Shown here one piece after another: positions 2,627-10,602 of a stretch of 34,124 nucleotides of DNA. Position 1 is the first letter of the stretch; each line of letters opens with the position of its first letter. The notes beneath the pieces were generated by a model that was given only the letters and a program-made list of their open reading frames with translations, ran no database searches and was not told the DNA's origin. The translations under genes and the position numbers were made by a program. This DNA is from Sulfurimonas sp. GTDB lineage: Bacteria; Campylobacterota; Campylobacteria; Campylobacterales; Sulfurimonadaceae. Location of the stretch: NCBI GenBank assembly GCA_027038255.1, contig JALVXQ010000203.1, positions 1-34,124 on the forward strand. Direction: 5' to 3'.

Positions 2627-2715
2627 GTTGTTTTACAGTTTCCTATGCCCTATAAATGGAGCTAATTTACCACAAGGACTCTTGCTGTCTTTACTGTAGT
2701 ACCTGTTTATTGAGA

Positions 2716-2721
2716 TATAAT
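2716..2721 (+). promoter_or_regulatory. Probable -10 box for hsdM
   Basis: TATAAT lies 24 nt before the hsdM ATG at 2746, with an AGGAAAA ribosome-binding stretch between them. The rest of the 153-nt gap 2593-2745 holds no credible gene; the ORF track's extension of hsdM into it (from 2656) has no ribosome binding site. Confidence 0.45.
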
Positions 2722-2745
2722 ACTATAAAAAATTTTAGGAAAACT

Positions 2746-4293
2746 ATGAACAAACTTACACTCCAAACACTTGAGAGATGGCTCTGGGATAGTGCTGATT
2801 TAATGAGAGGGCATATTGATAGCTCTGATTTTAAGAACTATATCTTTGGCTTACTCTTTTTAAAGAGAGCTAATGACCAGTTTATGGAAGAGGCAAATAT
2901 TGCTGTTAGCCAAGATGGTGTAAGTTTAGAAGAAGCACTTGAAGATGAAGACTACCACCAATTTTTTATTCCCTTTGATGCCTATTGGAGTGAGCTTACT
3001 AAAAAGAGTGAAAATATTGGTCAAGCTCTTGATAAGGCTTTTTCTCTCATTGAAGAGCATAACTCACAACTTGAAGGTGTTATGACTGCTGTTCATTTTG
3101 GAGATACTGAAAAACTTCCTGATGAACTTTTAGCACGACTGCTTCAACACTTTAACAAATACTCTCTTGCTAATGAACATTTAGACAATCCAGATATTTT
3201 AGGCTCTGCTTATGAGTATTTAATCCGTGAATTTGCTGATGATGGTGGAAAAAAAGGTGGAGAGTTCTATACACCAAAAGAGGTAGTGAAGCTTGTTGTA
3301 AGTCTCATAAAACCTGAAGCTGGAAATAGTGTCTATGATCCTACTTGTGGAAGTGGTGGTATGCTCATACAGAGTGCCAACTACATTAAAGCTCATGGTG
3401 GAACTGTTGGTAAGTTTGTAGATGCTAAACTTTACGGTCAGGAGAAGAACCTTGGAACTTGGGCTATTTGTAAGATAAATATGATTGTTCATAACTTCAA
3501 AGATAGCGATATACGAAAAGGCGATACTTTATCTTCTCCAAAACACTTGGAAAATGGCGAATTAATGACATTTGACAGAGTGATAGCAAATCCACCATTT
3601 AGCTTAAAGAAGTGGTGGCACCCTGCTGAGATAGATATAAAGCAAGATGAAAAAGGCAAAGAGATAGCACCAAAATATAACTCTGTTGTCTCCGATGAGT
3701 ATGGAAGATTTAAGTATGGCATACCACCAAGGGGATATGGAGATTTAGCATTTGTTCAGCATATGGTAAGTGTTCTTAAAAATGATGGTCGGATGGGTGT
3801 AGTACTCCCTCACGGTATATTGTTTCGTGGTGGAACAGAGGGGAAAATACGAGAGGGCTTGCTCAATGATGACATTATAGAAGCTATTGTCGGACTTCCT
3901 GAAAAGCTGTTTTACAACACTGGCATACCTGCTTCTATCATCATCATAAACAAGAGTAAATCTGAGAACCTTAAAAACAGAGTTGTGTTTATAGATGCTT
4001 CGAGTGAATACAAAGACGGTAAGAACCAAAACACGCTAACCGATGAGAATATTAAAAAAATAGTAGAGAGTTATGATGGGCTTGAAGATATAGATAAGTT
4101 TATACGAATAGTTGATATGAGTGAAATAGAAGAGAATGATTATAACTTAAATATTTCACGATACATTGATACGAGCGAAGATGAAGAGATTATAGATATT
4201 AAAGCTACTCTTGAAGATATAAAAGAGTTAGAAGTTAAAGAGCAAGAGATAGATAGTAAGTTAAACGGTTATCTTAAAAGTTTAGGTTTTTAA
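2746..4293 (+). CDS. hsdM: Type I restriction-modification methyltransferase subunit HsdM
   Basis: Adenine-N6 methyltransferase subunit, which modifies host DNA at sites chosen by HsdS and is needed for restriction by the HsdR complex. The protein is 515 aa, close to the EcoR124I-type length. An N-terminal helical HsdM_N region (1-140) precedes the catalytic domain. The AdoMet motif I is DPTCGSGG (198-205) and catalytic motif IV is NPPF (282-285). The ATG at 2746 was preferred to the ORF-track start at 2656 because it follows an AGGAAAA site and gives the usual N terminus (LERWLWDSADLMRG). hsdS follows after one base, so the two are co-transcribed. The gene is intact. Confidence 0.96.
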   Translation: MNKLTLQTLERWLWDSADLMRGHIDSSDFKNYIFGLLFLKRANDQFMEEANIAVSQDGVSLEEALEDEDYHQFFIPFDAYWSELTKKSENIGQALDKAFSLIEEHNSQLEGVMTAVHFGDTEKLPDELLARLLQHFNKYSLANEHLDNPDILGSAYEYLIREFADDGGKKGGEFYTPKEVVKLVVSLIKPEAGNSVYDPTCGSGGMLIQSANYIKAHGGTVGKFVDAKLYGQEKNLGTWAICKINMIVHNFKDSDIRKGDTLSSPKHLENGELMTFDRVIANPPFSLKKWWHPAEIDIKQDEKGKEIAPKYNSVVSDEYGRFKYGIPPRGYGDLAFVQHMVSVLKNDGRMGVVLPHGILFRGGTEGKIREGLLNDDIIEAIVGLPEKLFYNTGIPASIIIINKSKSENLKNRVVFIDASSEYKDGKNQNTLTDENIKKIVESYDGLEDIDKFIRIVDMSEIEENDYNLNISRYIDTSEDEEIIDIKATLEDIKELEVKEQEIDSKLNGYLKSLGF

Positions 4294-4294
4294 T

Positions 4295-5494
4295 ATGGTA
4301 GCTGATGGTTATAAAAAAACTGAGATTGGGGTTATACCTGTTGAGTGGGATGTTGTAAAAGTTGGGGAAATACTAAATGTTCAAACTGGAAAAATGAATG
4401 CCCAAGACCAAGTAAATGATGGAATTTATCCTTTTTTTACTCGTTCTATTGATGTTCAAACTATTGATATTTATGCTTATGATACAGAAGCTTTATTCAT
4501 AGCAGGAGAAGGAAACTTCAAGGTCAAGTATTATAATGGAAAGTTTAATTGTCATCAACGAACTTATATGCTTACTTCAAAAAATACTAATAATATGAAG
4601 TTTTTGCTAAATGCTATACAACCAAAAGTGAATAAATTAATTTCTACCTCTGTTGGTTCTACTGTTCAATCTTTAAGAAAACCAATAATTGAAGCTCTTA
4701 AAATCCCACTCCCACCACTAAAAGAACAAGAGAAAATAGCTGATATTTTATCAACTGCTGATGAGAAGATAGATGCTACCCAGGCACAAATCCAAAAAGC
4801 CGAAACTCTTAAAAAGGCTCTTCTACAAAAGCTACTAAGTGAGGGTATAGGACATAGTGAATTTAAGGATAGTGAGCTTGGGAAGATACCTGAGAGTTGG
4901 GAGGTTGTGAAAGTTGGAAAATATACAAAACTTATGGGAGGATATGCTTTTAAAAGTAGAGATGCGAAAGAATTTGGAACAAGATGGTTGAAAATCGCTA
5001 ATGTAGGAATAAAAAAAATTAAATGGGAGCAAACTTCTTATTTAGAAGACACTTATCAAGAAGAATATAAAAAGTTTATGTTAAGGAAAAATGATATTGT
5101 ATTGGCTATGACCAGACCTATTTTGAGTATGAAATTGAAAATCGCTAAAATTACTAATAATGACATTCCAGCCTTACTAAACCAAAGAGTAGGAAAGTTT
5201 ATCTTTGATGATAATGTTAATAGTGAGTTTATGTTTCAATTATTTCAACATATAGATTTTGTTAAGTTATTAATGCTAAAAATTATGGGAACAGACCCAC
5301 CAAATGTAAGTAGTGAGCAATTAGAAACTATTAAAATCCCACTCCCACCCCTCGAAGAACAAAAACAAATAGCCGAAATCTTATCAACTGCTGATGAAAA
5401 GTTAGAAGTCCTTTGTGCTAAAAAAGAGAAATATGAAACACTCAAAATTGGTCTGTTACAGAAGCTTTTGAGTGGAGAGATCAGAACTGTTTGA
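4295..5494 (+). CDS. hsdS: Type I restriction-modification specificity subunit HsdS
   Basis: DNA-recognition subunit of 399 aa with the standard two-half design. Each half starts with a similar sequence (EIGVIPVEWDVVKVG near residue 10 and ELGKIPESWEVVKVG near 195), has a variable target-recognition domain, and ends in a conserved spacer helix (PLPPLKEQEKIADILSTADEK and PLPPLEEQKQIAEILSTADEK). The two helices set the spacing of a bipartite recognition site, which cannot be predicted from sequence alone. The DNA under the two helices keeps perfect 19-bp and 17-bp direct repeats 633 bp apart, a possible in-frame recombination site. The gene follows hsdM by one base. It is intact, with no homopolymer phase-variation tract seen. 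Confidence 0.95.
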   Translation: MVADGYKKTEIGVIPVEWDVVKVGEILNVQTGKMNAQDQVNDGIYPFFTRSIDVQTIDIYAYDTEALFIAGEGNFKVKYYNGKFNCHQRTYMLTSKNTNNMKFLLNAIQPKVNKLISTSVGSTVQSLRKPIIEALKIPLPPLKEQEKIADILSTADEKIDATQAQIQKAETLKKALLQKLLSEGIGHSEFKDSELGKIPESWEVVKVGKYTKLMGGYAFKSRDAKEFGTRWLKIANVGIKKIKWEQTSYLEDTYQEEYKKFMLRKNDIVLAMTRPILSMKLKIAKITNNDIPALLNQRVGKFIFDDNVNSEFMFQLFQHIDFVKLLMLKIMGTDPPNVSSEQLETIKIPLPPLEEQKQIAEILSTADEKLEVLCAKKEKYETLKIGLLQKLLSGEIRTV

Positions 5495-5499
5495 CTTAT

Positions 5500-5532
5500 G
5501 TATATAAAATAGTATATAATTAAAGATATAAT
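5500..5532 (+). promoter_or_regulatory. Promoter/operator region of the toxin-antitoxin-hsdR operon
   Basis: The 58-nt gap after hsdS contains three near-identical 8-mers, GTATATAA (5500), GTATATAA (5512) and GATATAAT (5525), spaced 12 and 13 bp. Two TATAAT boxes (5515-5520, 5527-5532) fall in the same stretch. Tandem or inverted short repeats over the promoter are the usual binding targets of ribbon-helix-helix antitoxins. This arrangement is therefore a candidate autoregulatory operator; binding is inferred. Confidence 0.5.
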
Positions 5533-5552
5533 TTTTCTAAAAGGATTTGACT

Positions 5553-5822
5553 ATGCACTCACTAGCACAACTTCAAAAACAACAAGTAGGGCTTAGATTG
5601 CCCGTTTATCTCATAGAACAGATAGATGAGTTTACACAAGAGTATAACTTAAATAGAACAGATATTATTATAGAGTCTATAAAGTCGTATATTGAGAAAC
5701 AAGAGGCAGAGGAATTTTATAGAAGTTTTGATGCTTCTTGTAAGGAACTAAGAGAAGTTTTAGATGACCCTAAAAAAGCTGAAGCATTACAAACAATAGA
5801 AGAGTTTCTTGATGAGCTTTAA
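5553..5822 (+). CDS. Ribbon-helix-helix antitoxin
   Basis: The 89-aa protein has an N-terminal strand and two helices typical of ribbon-helix-helix DNA-binding antitoxins (GLRLPVYLIEQIDEFTQEY, then LNRTDIIIESIKSYIEKQ, residues about 12-48). An acidic helical tail (about 50-89) would bind the toxin. It should neutralise the toxin encoded next and repress its own promoter. ATG 5553 was chosen because AAGGA (5541-5545) sits 7 nt upstream; the ORF track's TTG two codons earlier is less likely. The 3' end overlaps the toxin start by 11 nt. The gene lies inside a type I restriction locus, between hsdS and hsdR. Confidence 0.85.
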   Translation: MHSLAQLQKQQVGLRLPVYLIEQIDEFTQEYNLNRTDIIIESIKSYIEKQEAEEFYRSFDASCKELREVLDDPKKAEALQTIEEFLDEL

Positions 5823-6147
5823 AATTAAGCCGGTTGATGGTTTTAAAAGAGACTTTAAAAAATTAGCAAAAAAATATAAAAAGTTAGATGATGATGTTAA
5901 AAAAGTTGTCTTAGAGCTAAGGAACAATCCAAAAGTAGGTACTTATCTACAACATAATTGTTATAAAGTAAGAATGGCGAACTCTTCTACTTCAACAGGA
6001 AAAAGTGGAGGTTTTAGAGTTATCTACTATTTTATAGATGAACAAAATAACCTTTATCTTATGAATATCTACTCTAAAACAAAAAAAGAGAATATATCTG
6101 AACATGAACTGCTTGAACTTCTAAGAATAAACGGCTTAGATAAATGA
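5812..6147 (+). CDS. RelE/ParE-superfamily toxin
   Basis: A basic 111-aa protein with the compact beta-alpha fold signature of RelE/ParE toxins. It has a lysine-rich helix pair (FKRDFKKLAKKYKKLDDDVKK), the middle segment VRMANSSTSTGKSGGFRVIYYFIDE, and a C-terminal strand LYLMNIYSKTKKENIS. The GGFRVIYYF segment and KTKKENIS end match the usual RelE-like core. Whether it is an mRNA interferase (RelE) or gyrase poison (ParE) cannot be decided. Start is ATG 5812, overlapping the antitoxin end; its TGA overlaps the hsdR ATG by 4 nt (ATGA). Length is normal and the gene looks intact. Confidence 0.85.
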   Translation: MSFKIKPVDGFKRDFKKLAKKYKKLDDDVKKVVLELRNNPKVGTYLQHNCYKVRMANSSTSTGKSGGFRVIYYFIDEQNNLYLMNIYSKTKKENISEHELLELLRINGLDK

Positions 6148-9062
6148 GCGAATACCACCAATCAGAACTCCCAGCGATAGAGCTTTTCAAAAAGTTAAAT
6201 TATGAATACTTTGATGCCAAAGGCGAAATGTATGAGGTTGTGCTTGAAGAGAGACTAACAACTTCACTCAAAAAAATAAACCCTTGGCTGGGTGTTAACA
6301 ACCTTCAAAAAGTAGTTCGCAAACTCTTAGCTTCAAGCACGATGGGTAGCTCACTAATGGAGATAAACTCTGAAATCCATAAACTCATAACTCGTGCCGA
6401 TGCTCTCTCACTTAAACCTACACCAGATGAACACCCAAAGGCTGTAAAGTTTATAGACTATGACAATCTTGATAACAATGAGTTTCTTGTAGTAAATCAG
6501 ATGAAGTTTAAAGGCGAACGTGCTAACTCTATTCCTGATTTAGTAGTGTTTGTGAATGGACTTCCACTTGCTGTAATAGAAGCAAAAAACCAAAAGGTAG
6601 ATATAAGTGATATTGCTGATTTAGAGTATTATCAATCTAACTCCCCAAAACTGTTTCACTACAATCAAATAATAGGTGCTATAAATCGTATAAGTGGTTT
6701 ATATGGAACAATAGAAGCTTCAATGAAGTTCTACTCAAAATATAATGAGGTCGCATCTCCTGAGCTTATAGAACTTCTTGATAATGAACCAACACCACAA
6801 GATATTTTAATCTATAACCTATTTGAGAAGAGAAGATTTCTTGACATTGTTAAATACTTTGTAATTTTTGAAGTTGTTGAGGGTAGAACAATAAAAAAAC
6901 TACCAAGATACCAACAACTAAGAGCTGTTAATAAAATAGTTGATAGACTTAAAAATGAAAATCGTGGTGGTGTTGTCTGGCATACACAGGGAAGTGGTAA
7001 ATCTATAACTATGATTTATCTTGCTACAAAGCTCCGAGCTGCTACAAGTGGGTTTGACAATCCTACTATTTTGGTTTTAACCGATAGAACAGATTTAGAC
7101 AACCAAATAAGAAGCACTTTTAACAGAGTGGGCTTTGCAAATGTGAATCAAGCAAACTCAATCTCACACTTAAAGAGACTGCTAAAAGATAGCTATGGTA
7201 AAACACTTACTTCAACGATACAGAAGTTTCAAGAGAGAGCAGAAGAGAAAAAAGAAGTTGAAGTATTAAGTGATAAAGAAAATGTATTTGTTTTAATAGA
7301 TGAAGCCCACCGTTCGCAGTATGGACTAACAGCTTCGTATATGAGACAATCACTCCCAAATGCGAAGTTTATAGCCTTTACGGGAACACCGATAGACAAA
7401 GAGAACAAATCAACACTTCACGAGTTTTACGGTGGAGATTATATAGATAAATACACCATTAAACAATCAGTTGCCGATGGTAATACTCTACCAATATTTT
7501 ATGAAACAGGACTAAGTAAGTTTTTTATAAACAAAGAAGAGCTTGATGCAGAGTTTAAAAAATTATTTGGTAATGAGAGTGCTAAAAAACAAGCAATACT
7601 AAAAACTAAGGCTTCACAACTTGATAAAAATGCTACCCTTAGAGTTGAAGAGATAGCAAAAAGCATTGTAGAACACTATAAGAATAAGAGCTATTTAGAT
7701 GGCTTCAAAGCTATGGTAGTTTGTCATAACAGATACCAAGCAATAGCCTATAAAAAAGCATTTAACAAATTAGCAGAGCAAGGGGAAAATAGCTTCCAAT
7801 CAAAAGTTATAATGAGTTTTAACACGAAAAAAGACCCACAAGAGTTTTATGATTTAGCAACACCAGAAGCAGATATAAAACAAGCGATAGAAGATTTCAA
7901 ACTACCATTTGGAAATGAAAATGATAAAAGCCGTGCTGGAAGAAAACAATTTGATAATACTGCGTTTTTAATTGTAAGTGATATGCTACTAACGGGATAT
8001 GATGCTCCAATACTTCAAACTCTTTATGTAGATAAGATACTTAAAGAGCATAATCTTCTTCAAGCCATAGCTCGTGTTAATAGAACAAGAAAGGGTAAAA
8101 ATGCTGGATATGTAGTTGATTATGCTGGCATTACAAAACACCTTGTTGATGCCCTTGAAATATTTAGTGGAGATTTGAGAGTAAGTGATGTTATGGTAGA
8201 TATAGAGAGTGAAAAAACTGTTCTTGAAAATAGACACACTAAGCTTGTTAATTACTTCAAAAGTGTTAAGAAAAACAGAGAAACACAGAGAGATGATTTT
8301 ATACTTCAAGCCATAAATTATTTGAAGCCAGAAGATATAAAAGATAAGTTCAAAGAGCTGACAAGTGATTTTAACAAATCAATGGACATAGTGCTTCCCG
8401 ACTCTTTTGCTTCTAAATATGATTATGATTTTAAGTTGTTTAATGAAATAAAAATGATGGTAAGAGACCCAAAAGAGAAAATCACCCGCGCGGATAGTAA
8501 GAAGCTTCAAATGATTTTAGATGAACACCTTAGAGCTAATGGGATTGAGTATTTACTTGAAGAGGCTATTGATATAACTGATTATAAGAAGTTTCAAGAA
8601 GCACTTGTCAGAGAGGGAAAACACAACCCACTGGATAAAGCAAAAGCAATCATAAAAGCTAATGAAGAAGAGAACCCAGAGTTGGCACTTGAACTCTCTG
8701 AACTACTGGAGAAAAGATTAATTGATGCTAAGATAGACCGAAAACAAGCTGTTATAGATCTGTTTAGCGATATGGAAACAATTATCAATCGCCACAAAAA
8801 TAGATATAGCAGTGTTGGACTGAGTGATGTGAAGCATCTTGTAGTATATGATTTAGTAAAAGATTTATGTGATGAAGCAGATAAACTAACACTCGAAATA
8901 TTTGATACATTAAAAGAAGAACTAAAAACTCCTGCTGTACTGACTCAAAGTGATGCTCAAAAAGAGATGAGAAACTCTATTAAGCCACTGCTTGCTAAAT
9001 ATGGGGTAGATAAAAAAATGTCAAAAACAATAATTGCTAAGTTGGTAGAAACATTTGTATAG
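6144..9062 (+). CDS. hsdR: Type I restriction endonuclease subunit HsdR
   Basis: A 972-aa restriction and DNA-translocation subunit. The N-terminal PD-(D/E)xK nuclease shows PDLVVF (D132) and EAK (E146, K148). The superfamily 2 motor follows, with Walker A HTQGSGKS (280-287), LTDRTDLD, the DEAH box (386-389) with HRSQYG, FTGTP near 413, and a late motif LLQAIARVNRTRKGK. The helical C-terminal region assembles with HsdM. The motif set and subunit sizes look like the EcoR124I (type IC) group, which is inference. The gene starts on the toxin stop codon (ATGA), so its expression should depend on the toxin-antitoxin promoter and on translational coupling rather than on the hsdMS promoter. Confidence 0.95.
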   Translation: MSEYHQSELPAIELFKKLNYEYFDAKGEMYEVVLEERLTTSLKKINPWLGVNNLQKVVRKLLASSTMGSSLMEINSEIHKLITRADALSLKPTPDEHPKAVKFIDYDNLDNNEFLVVNQMKFKGERANSIPDLVVFVNGLPLAVIEAKNQKVDISDIADLEYYQSNSPKLFHYNQIIGAINRISGLYGTIEASMKFYSKYNEVASPELIELLDNEPTPQDILIYNLFEKRRFLDIVKYFVIFEVVEGRTIKKLPRYQQLRAVNKIVDRLKNENRGGVVWHTQGSGKSITMIYLATKLRAATSGFDNPTILVLTDRTDLDNQIRSTFNRVGFANVNQANSISHLKRLLKDSYGKTLTSTIQKFQERAEEKKEVEVLSDKENVFVLIDEAHRSQYGLTASYMRQSLPNAKFIAFTGTPIDKENKSTLHEFYGGDYIDKYTIKQSVADGNTLPIFYETGLSKFFINKEELDAEFKKLFGNESAKKQAILKTKASQLDKNATLRVEEIAKSIVEHYKNKSYLDGFKAMVVCHNRYQAIAYKKAFNKLAEQGENSFQSKVIMSFNTKKDPQEFYDLATPEADIKQAIEDFKLPFGNENDKSRAGRKQFDNTAFLIVSDMLLTGYDAPILQTLYVDKILKEHNLLQAIARVNRTRKGKNAGYVVDYAGITKHLVDALEIFSGDLRVSDVMVDIESEKTVLENRHTKLVNYFKSVKKNRETQRDDFILQAINYLKPEDIKDKFKELTSDFNKSMDIVLPDSFASKYDYDFKLFNEIKMMVRDPKEKITRADSKKLQMILDEHLRANGIEYLLEEAIDITDYKKFQEALVREGKHNPLDKAKAIIKANEEENPELALELSELLEKRLIDAKIDRKQAVIDLFSDMETIINRHKNRYSSVGLSDVKHLVVYDLVKDLCDEADKLTLEIFDTLKEELKTPAVLTQSDAQKEMRNSIKPLLAKYGVDKKMSKTIIAKLVETFV

Positions 9063-9753
9063 TGTAGAGTATGGCACTAAAAGTATTACATTTGATATAG
9101 AGCGCAAAGCAAATCTCAAAAATACCTATATCAATGTTGATACTAATGGGGTGCTTGTAAAAACAAATGATACCACCACCATAGAGCAAATTAACGAGAT
9201 GGTTCGTAATAAATCAGCTTGGATAAGTAAGAAGCTTGAACTATTCAAAGCTATAGCAATCAATAAAGACATTAGCACTGGTTCAAGACTTTATTATATG
9301 GGCAAGAGTTATTATGTTGAAATGATTGAAGATGAAACTGCTGAAATAATTATAATTAACTTCACTCACTCAAAATTTCATATAACTACACCACAAAAAT
9401 ATAGTGATGTTGAACTCAACAATGCCATTGAATACTTCTACAAGCAAAAAGCAATAGAAAAAATAATACCACTAACTAAAAAGTGGGCTCAGAAAATGGA
9501 AGTATTTCCAGAACACATAAGTTTTAGATACTCAAAAAACAGATGGGGAAGTTGTAGCTCAACTAATCGTATATCATTTAACTACCACCTTGTAAAACTA
9601 TCTTCTTCATTAATAGAGTATGTTGTGATACACGAATTAGCTCATATAACTTTTGAAAATCACTCTAAGGAGTTCTGGAAGTTGGTTTATAAACATCTTG
9701 CCGATTATAAAGTAAGAGAAGAAAAGATAAGAGTGTTTGAGAAGTTGATTTAA
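9055..9753 (+). CDS. YgjP/SprT-like zinc metallopeptidase (DUF45 family)
   Basis: The 232-aa protein carries the full family signature. RWGSCSS (163-169) is followed by HELAH (193-197) and the third zinc ligand in ENHSKEFW (H203). No signal peptide or membrane helix is present, so it should be cytoplasmic. The family (YgjP-like, DUF45) is often found next to type I restriction genes, but its role there is not established to my knowledge. The start is a TTG at 9055, overlapping the hsdR 3' end by 8 nt; no in-frame ATG occurs for the first 48 codons, so TTG is needed to keep the N-terminal beta domain. It is the last gene of the restriction island. Confidence 0.85.
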   Translation: MYSVEYGTKSITFDIERKANLKNTYINVDTNGVLVKTNDTTTIEQINEMVRNKSAWISKKLELFKAIAINKDISTGSRLYYMGKSYYVEMIEDETAEIIIINFTHSKFHITTPQKYSDVELNNAIEYFYKQKAIEKIIPLTKKWAQKMEVFPEHISFRYSKNRWGSCSSTNRISFNYHLVKLSSSLIEYVVIHELAHITFENHSKEFWKLVYKHLADYKVREEKIRVFEKLI

Positions 9754-9840: not shown

Positions 9841-10602
9841 ATGATTTATATAGTTTTTATGATTTTTACACTCTTAGTTTTGATTTTTGTTTTTTATCAG
9901 TGGCAGTATTTTATGATTTTTTCTCCTCTGTATTATAGAGAGGAGCCTCTATGTGAAGCATGCAGACTTTTGAGTATTACAACAGAGGATGGCGTGGAGC
10001 TTGAAGGGGTCGTCTATGAACCCCAAAATTATAAAAACAGACTGCTTGTTTTTGTCGGCAGAAGCCATGATGCTGTAGGGCTTATCAACCGATTTGCAAA
10101 TCTCTATCCACATACGCAGATAATTACATTTAATTACCGCGCTTATGGTAAAAGCGGCGGTGTGGCAAGTGAGAAGAATTTCTTACAAGACGGTCTGAAA
10201 ATTGCACAGCTTGTCAAAAAGAATTATGGAGATTTTTATCTGCTTGGGTTTTCTATAGGTTCGAGTGTTGCAGCTTATGTGGCATCTAAAGTGAATGTGA
10301 AAGGGCTGTTTTTAGTCGGAGCTTTTGACTCCATTGCATCTGTAGCTACAAAAAAATTTGGCATAAATCTCTCAGCTATGCTAAGATACAAGTTTAATAC
10401 AAAAAAGTTTATGCAAAATGTAGATGCACCGACCTATCTGTTTGTCAGCAAAGATGATGAACTGACATATATAGAAAATGCCCGTGTGCTGAAAAATAGT
10501 ATTAAAAATCTTGTTCATTACATTGAGTTTGATGCTTTAGCACATAAAGACCTTCTGTGGGATGAGAGAACAGTGGCAAAAATAAAGGAAGTGATAGAGT
10601 GA
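9841..10602 (+). CDS. Membrane-anchored alpha/beta hydrolase (BEM46/YfhR-like)
   Basis: The 253-aa protein starts with a membrane helix (residues 1-28) and then an alpha/beta hydrolase domain. The nucleophile elbow is GFSIGSS (Ser138), after the oxyanion-side segment FNYRAYGKSGG (97-107). A late Asp in SKDDELTY and His in ALAHKDLLW complete the likely triad. The substrate is unknown; relatives are serine esterases facing either side of the membrane. There is no ribosome binding site before the ATG, and a TATAAT ends 7 nt upstream, suggesting a leaderless mRNA. It overlaps the ElyC/YdcF-like gene (TGATG) and should be co-transcribed with it. Confidence 0.8.
   Translation: MIYIVFMIFTLLVLIFVFYQWQYFMIFSPLYYREEPLCEACRLLSITTEDGVELEGVVYEPQNYKNRLLVFVGRSHDAVGLINRFANLYPHTQIITFNYRAYGKSGGVASEKNFLQDGLKIAQLVKKNYGDFYLLGFSIGSSVAAYVASKVNVKGLFLVGAFDSIASVATKKFGINLSAMLRYKFNTKKFMQNVDAPTYLFVSKDDELTYIENARVLKNSIKNLVHYIEFDALAHKDLLWDERTVAKIKEVIE

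Follow-up and report, generated by a model that had tools for sequence, protein, structure and literature searches.

A HigB2-like toxin-antitoxin pair with a conserved promoter precedes hsdR in a type I restriction-modification locus of Sulfurimonas sp.

Introduction

Type I restriction-modification loci harboring a toxin-antitoxin (TA) pair between hsdS and hsdR have been described. The RRDM island of enteropathogenic Escherichia coli (EPEC) E2348/69 has the order RptR-hsdM-hsdS-DarTG2-hsdR-M48 peptidase, RptR being a protein of 79 aa, and its authors regard the site between hsdS and hsdR as a possible hotspot of recombination for defence systems (PMC12255303). The pneumococcal SpnIV tvr locus is arranged as hsdM-hsdS-tvrAT-tvrR-hsdR (PMC6265443). 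Here we report on a DNA stretch of 34,124 nt from Sulfurimonas sp. (assembly GCA_027038255.1, contig JALVXQ010000203.1, positions 1 to 34,124), called the window, in which an antitoxin and a toxin gene stand between hsdS and hsdR of a type I locus. The reading that we prefer, and to which we give an about even chance, is that of a complete type I locus with a self-regulated HigB2-like TA pair in a cargo slot; hsdR would be the third cistron of the TA operon and be translated mainly by reinitiation, and stabilisation of the locus would be what was most likely selected.

Results

The TA-hsdR unit

In the window, the genes hsdM-hsdS-antitoxin-toxin-hsdR and a gene for a YgjP metallopeptidase follow each other on the plus strand. 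The antitoxin gene overlaps the toxin gene by 11 nt, the toxin gene overlaps hsdR by 4 nt (ATGA), and hsdR overlaps the metallopeptidase gene by 8 nt, so that the coordinates agree with the gene order and the overlaps given in a preliminary description of this DNA. The antitoxin (5553-5822, ATG start) comprises 89 aa and yielded no family in a Pfam search. By weak similarity its N-terminal domain looks like the ribbon-helix-helix (RHH) type, which was deduced from matches to solved structures, the best of them being 2k5j (CopG/YiiF-type, E=8e-4), besides 9kkd and 7by2. An AlphaFold model of the antitoxin from a five-row alignment was set aside (pLDDT 60, pTM 0.29). The toxin (5812-6147, 111 aa) matched PF06296 RelE (E=6.7e-8) and is in sequence nearest to HigB-2 (5ja8, E=1e-11); Foldseek gave 5jaa as best match (E=4.7e-5) with a low-confidence model. 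With a toxin of the RelE/HigB fold and an upstream antitoxin gene overlapping that of the toxin by 11 nt, the pair has the build of a type II TA module. The following gene, hsdR (6144-9062), encodes the restriction/translocase subunit with HSDR_N, SWI2_SNF2 and T1R_D3-like domains and scored above the cut-off of TIGR00348.

Intact TA-hsdR joints were found in five loci (the window and the genomes G343, G554, G525 and G397), in which the 11-nt and 4-nt overlaps are identical. The 8-nt overlap of hsdR and the peptidase gene is also identical in those TA-hsdR loci whose contig extends to the peptidase. The antitoxins of the hsdR-linked orthologues G343, G554, G525 and G397 are 78-93% identical. 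Moreover, genome G310 contains an independent pair composed of a Phd/YefM antitoxin and a HigB2-like toxin, which has the same 4-nt joint with an unrelated EcoR124-type hsdR. A single insertion without conservation, which the preliminary description had considered fatal to its proposal, is therefore not what these loci disclose.

None of the five intact TA loci exhibited a Shine-Dalgarno-like motif before hsdR, compared to six out of seven loci with a non-overlapped hsdR (one-sided hypergeometric p=0.0076; 15 nt before hsdR, a motif list picked by eye and a small sample). As hsdR lacks such a motif and is joined to the toxin gene by 4 nt, HsdR synthesis should follow translation of the toxin, presumably by reinitiation once the toxin stop codon is reached. 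In two loci with a DUF3800 gene, gaps of 194 nt precede hsdR (L051:1310-1503, L069:3182-3375), in which a Shine-Dalgarno-like motif and promoter-like, AT-rich sequence occur. In the hsdR clade of the window, loci with no TA pair at all may thus often transcribe hsdR separately.

The promoter in front of the TA genes

The best promoter match of the region (5491-5520, plus strand) was detected directly upstream of the TA-hsdR unit. It consists of TTGACT (5491-5496), which overlaps the hsdS stop codon, an 18-nt spacer and TATAAT (5515-5520), and agrees with the consensus at 11 of 12 positions. A second TATAAT is located at 5527-5532. Between the -35 and -10 boxes lies a direct repeat GTATATAA (5500-5507 and 5512-5519), a predicted candidate operator of the antitoxin extending over 5500-5519, and a weaker third repeat unit GATATAAT is found at 5525-5532. 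The repeat core GTATATAAATAnTATATAAT is conserved throughout the TA family.

Consensus alone was rejected as proof of a promoter, since the region contained fewer promoter-like sites than shuffled DNA (21 vs. 30). The promoter is credible because it is conserved across loci: the block TTGACTTATGTATATAAATAGTATATAAT was retained in G343, G554, G525, G397, G523 and G420, and what precedes it may be hsdS, a repeat-like stretch, an hsdR fragment, another TA pair or unrelated DNA. In G525, G397, G523 and G420 the upstream DNA is unrelated and the block is still conserved. Free members of the TA family possess a matching -35 box, GTATATAA-type repeats and a -10 box. The promoter is kept whatever lies upstream or downstream of it, and we therefore regard it as part of the TA cassette, not as a structure built for hsdR; a TA promoter specific for hsdR was rejected because the same pattern stands before the free members. 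The separate promoter with two TATAAT boxes and three repeats which the preliminary description had proposed is present as described and is made credible by its conservation across loci, the third repeat being weaker than the others. Different promoters for hsdMS and hsdR had been proposed as well. This claim holds insofar as a second, TA-borne promoter before hsdR is conserved, but this promoter is not specific for restriction.

Loss and exchange of the TA genes

Several loci have lost parts of the TA pair or of hsdR. In G523 the antitoxin is trimmed to its RHH half (63 aa) and the toxin is deleted, while promoter, start signal and the 4-nt joint with hsdR are intact. Just upstream of this RHH-only remnant and hsdR, G523 contains a second TA pair, Phd/YefM and YafQ-like (L143:9459-9984). 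G397 harbors a degenerate 5' end of hsdR upstream of the TA pair and another hsdR start downstream of it, which records an exchange at the joint. G420 possesses an intact TA pair followed at the expected place by CGAATACACACAAA, an exact copy of 14 nt of the hsdR 5' end. What is left in G563 is roughly the final 20 nt of hsdS, the promoter, a TA pair disrupted by a deletion and a frameshift, and the terminal 14 codons of the peptidase gene. In G420 and G563 the restriction genes have been lost around the TA pair, which fits a TA pair that is hard to lose. Such loci, containing the TA pair or its scar and no hsdR, fit stabilisation better than a restriction timer.

A different kind of change was observed in G343 and G554, whose loci reside in chromosome-sized contigs (2.8 and 2.6 Mb). 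Their mean identity was 93% over 195 segments of 100 nt, and their HsdR proteins are 97% identical. Only six segments fell below 82%, four within the TA pair and two about 1.8 kb upstream. The latter, at 77-80% identity, lie in L242 about 1.8 kb before the start of L031. The hsdS recognition domains of the two loci do not align at all. The swapped TA tract (L031:6789-7192, 404 nt) exhibited about 29% differences, as against 1.8-2.5% in the promoter and RHH half that precede it and 5% at the hsdR start that follows. According to this comparison, it corresponds to 5669-6072 of the window, plus strand, from antitoxin codon 39 to toxin codon 87. The raised synonymous divergence of the TA genes (dS 0.42 for the toxin and 0.67 for the antitoxin, vs. 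0.12 for hsdR) points to import by recombination rather than to fast point change. Contrary to the HsdR relationships, the toxin of G554 is nearer to that of the window (78%) and the toxin of G343 nearer to that of G525 (74%). It is a rather improbable idea that the tract in which antitoxin and toxin pair serves the restriction locus as another specificity element under selection, exchanged among strains as the hsdS recognition domains are; TA alleles that do not match would then keep the resident restriction allele from being displaced by a sister allele.

Promoter, RHH half and hsdR joint were untouched by the swap, which changed the half that neutralises the toxin. This pattern bears on another explanation, that the RHH antitoxin is kept mainly as a dedicated repressor of hsdR, which would let methylation come first and restriction later, as C proteins do in type II systems. 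The remnant of G523, in which an RHH-only antitoxin is retained with promoter and hsdR joint, adds some weight to the idea of a delayed restriction, and a type I locus with a small repressor is known from RptR (PMC12255303). However, family members with no restriction gene under their control have the same promoter and repeats, and the RHH-only form, found in one genome, may be a fresh deletion. Furthermore, most hsdR orthologues, including ones 84-93% identical, manage without this TA pair and have other genes in its place. We consider a dedicated controller unlikely.

Members of the TA family at other sites

Members of the wider TA family overlap not only hsdR but, likewise by 4 nt, anmK (G528, G481, G497) and uvrB (G485), and the family also occupies many free sites. 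The joint is therefore not restriction-specific, and the overlap was rejected as proof of a functional fusion. These sites favor the view that a mobile TA family settles harmlessly between operon genes at ATG(A) starts, hsdR being an incidental neighbor, and so does the slot between hsdS and hsdR, which admits many kinds of genes (see below). Yet the antitoxin subfamily of the window (MHSLAxLxKQQVGLRLPxYLxEQID) is concentrated at hsdR, eight of its nine members residing there or with its trace: five are intact before hsdR, G523 has the RHH half before hsdR, G420 and G563 contain traces, and only G174 has none. Both genes are under purifying selection, with non-synonymous divergence (dN) of 0.04-0.13 vs. 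dS >0.5 for the antitoxin and 0.12-0.31 vs. >0.4 for the toxin. The independent pair of G310, with another type of antitoxin and the same joint to another hsdR family, also speaks against a mere passenger, an explanation which we find rather doubtful. A tree of the first 390 HsdR residues required at least two changes for the window-type TA pair and had so few supported forks that the gains of the pair could not be counted.

The slot between hsdS and hsdR

Among 101 type I loci of Campylobacterota, 89 contained at least one open reading frame of at least 60 aa between hsdS and hsdR (a plain count of mechanically called frames on either strand, with related species included). This gap is a general cargo slot. 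In the hsdR clade of the window it is filled by XRE-ImmA and PIN/NYN-like genes (G249, L054), HATPase, STAS and PIN genes (L065), Phd and YafQ (L058), RhuM (L053), DUF3800 (L051, L069), DUF3800 and Fic (L062), or AbiH with an OLD-nuclease/UvrD pair resembling Gabija (L061), and is empty in L056 and L057. That abortive-infection and defence genes such as AbiH with the Gabija-like pair, RhuM and Fic occupy the slot of close relatives would suit a guard of restriction, in which a phage blocking restriction or host expression causes the antitoxin to fall and the toxin to halt translation; the PrrC toxin next to EcoprrI provides a precedent (PMC12707154). Such a guard is very improbable, as nothing in the sequence ties the release of the toxin to an inhibited HsdR, neither a fusion nor an interaction domain was seen, and toxins of the HigB2 type are usually freed by loss of the antitoxin, not by a restriction enzyme.

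Some further arrangements were encountered in and around these loci. A PemK/MazF-like toxin gene (160-163 aa) with no adjoining antitoxin gene lies between hsdM and hsdS at L031:4930-5421, L142:9992-10483 and L143:7710-8192. At the contig end L146:55-1128, two small gene pairs directly follow hsdS in tandem, the last gene encoding a HigB2-like toxin. The hsdR gene of G125 is broken by a stop codon into two frames (L034:1422-4415) and lies downstream of a Schlafen AlbA_2 gene. The genes flanking the window's locus (1855-2592 and 9841-10602) adjoin each other in L051 (6370-7938), where a related restriction locus stands beside them; apparently, this flanking site was used by restriction loci more than once.

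Other genes of the locus

The remaining genes complete a type I locus with hsdM, a two-domain hsdS, and hsdR with nuclease and SF2 motor domains. On the plus strand, hsdM (2746-4293) encodes the DNA methyltransferase subunit (PF02384, E=4.5e-107; HsdM_N, PF12161, E=1.1e-22; NCBIfam TIGR00497 above cut-off), and hsdS (4295-5494) the specificity subunit with its pair of target-recognition domains; Methylase_S (PF01420) matched it in two stretches (E=6.1e-48). The YgjP-like metallopeptidase gene (9055-9753, plus strand, TTG start; PF01863, E=1.4e-49) is found downstream of hsdR in most loci of the same hsdR clade. The closest hsdR orthologues belong to metagenome-assembled genomes of Sulfurimonas.

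Discussion

RHH antitoxins generally repress their own operon, and on this basis binding of the antitoxin to the repeats of the window is assumed. In the reading that we prefer, the TA cassette brings along its own promoter, and the operator of the antitoxin is presumed to lie between its -35 and -10 boxes. HsdR would then be made from two transcripts, one reading through from hsdM and one starting at the TA promoter, the latter probably damped by the antitoxin-toxin complex. Judged by the ATGA joint and the missing Shine-Dalgarno motif, translation of hsdR should occur mainly by reinitiation after the toxin stop codon. Loss of the locus would entail loss of the labile antitoxin and poisoning of the cell, and the neighboring genes could be deleted only around the TA pair until the pair itself is broken, as one scar and one orphan TA pair suggest. 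The anatomy of the locus, the conservation of promoter and joint, the cargo slot, the swap and the scar are observations; autorepression, reinitiation, stabilisation and the effect on the HsdR level are inferred. Modulation of the HsdR level is a probable consequence of this arrangement and perhaps not the reason for the presence of the cassette.

Several points weigh against this reading. A read-through transcript from hsdM is expected, as no terminator-like site was seen on the plus strand between 2550 and 9900, so that hsdR may owe little to the TA promoter. Since the family resides at many sites without restriction genes, its persistence may reflect general TA behavior. The scar (G563) and the orphan TA pair (G420) come from one genome each. 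Finally, for TvrAT, the nearest tested analogue, no addiction was found; it suppresses excision of its locus (PMC6265443).

This locus makes two matters testable, how type I systems restrain restriction and why they persist. With HsdR as the product of the third cistron of a TA operon, a link may exist between antitoxin level, translation of the toxin and restriction. The TA tract was swapped next to hsdS recognition domains that were swapped as well, which suggests a possible role of TA alleles in controlling the replacement of restriction loci.

In its sequence and predicted fold, the toxin appears similar to that of HigBA2 of Vibrio cholerae (5jaa, 8a0x). In HigBA2, however, the toxin gene higB2 comes first, and HigA2 does not belong to the RHH type; in the window an antitoxin of presumed RHH type precedes the toxin, and a restriction gene follows. 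Like type II systems controlled by C proteins, the locus has the gene of a small, presumably DNA-binding protein with its own promoter shortly ahead of the restriction gene. C proteins, in contrast, are helix-turn-helix regulators of type II systems and come without a toxin (see also the discussion of PMC12255303). As in EcoprrI-PrrC, the gene of a translation-blocking toxin is embedded in a type I locus; PrrC, however, is an anticodon nuclease that is set off when the restriction enzyme is inhibited, whereas the window encodes a classical antitoxin with the toxin. The SpnIV locus has its TA pair, the phd-doc-like TvrAT, likewise between hsdS and hsdR of a type I locus, but also the recombinase TvrR and hsdS shuffling (PMC6265443); neither a site-specific recombinase nor silent hsdS segments are present at 2656-9753 of the window. 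The EPEC RRDM island (PMC12255303) matches the window in gene order, with a TA pair between hsdS and hsdR and a metallopeptidase downstream. It differs in that its TA pair is DarTG2, acting by ADP-ribosylation of DNA, and not a HigB2-like one, and in that control is exerted by RptR at a promoter before the whole island; in the accessible sections of its description no TA-borne hsdR promoter is mentioned. In the window, no rptR-like first gene was found before hsdM, the divergent gene at 1855-2592 encoding a protein of 245 aa without a Pfam family. In a study on TA systems of Haemophilus, hsd appears only within strain genotypes (PMC3951411). For a TA-borne hsdR promoter, an RHH-only remnant or a swapped pairing tract, no description was found in a literature search that fell short of most subscription papers. 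Thus, the layout has precedents, and what differs here is that the pairing part of the TA pair is exchanged among strains, much like the hsdS recognition domains, and that the TA pair travels with hsdR and survives it when the locus disappears.

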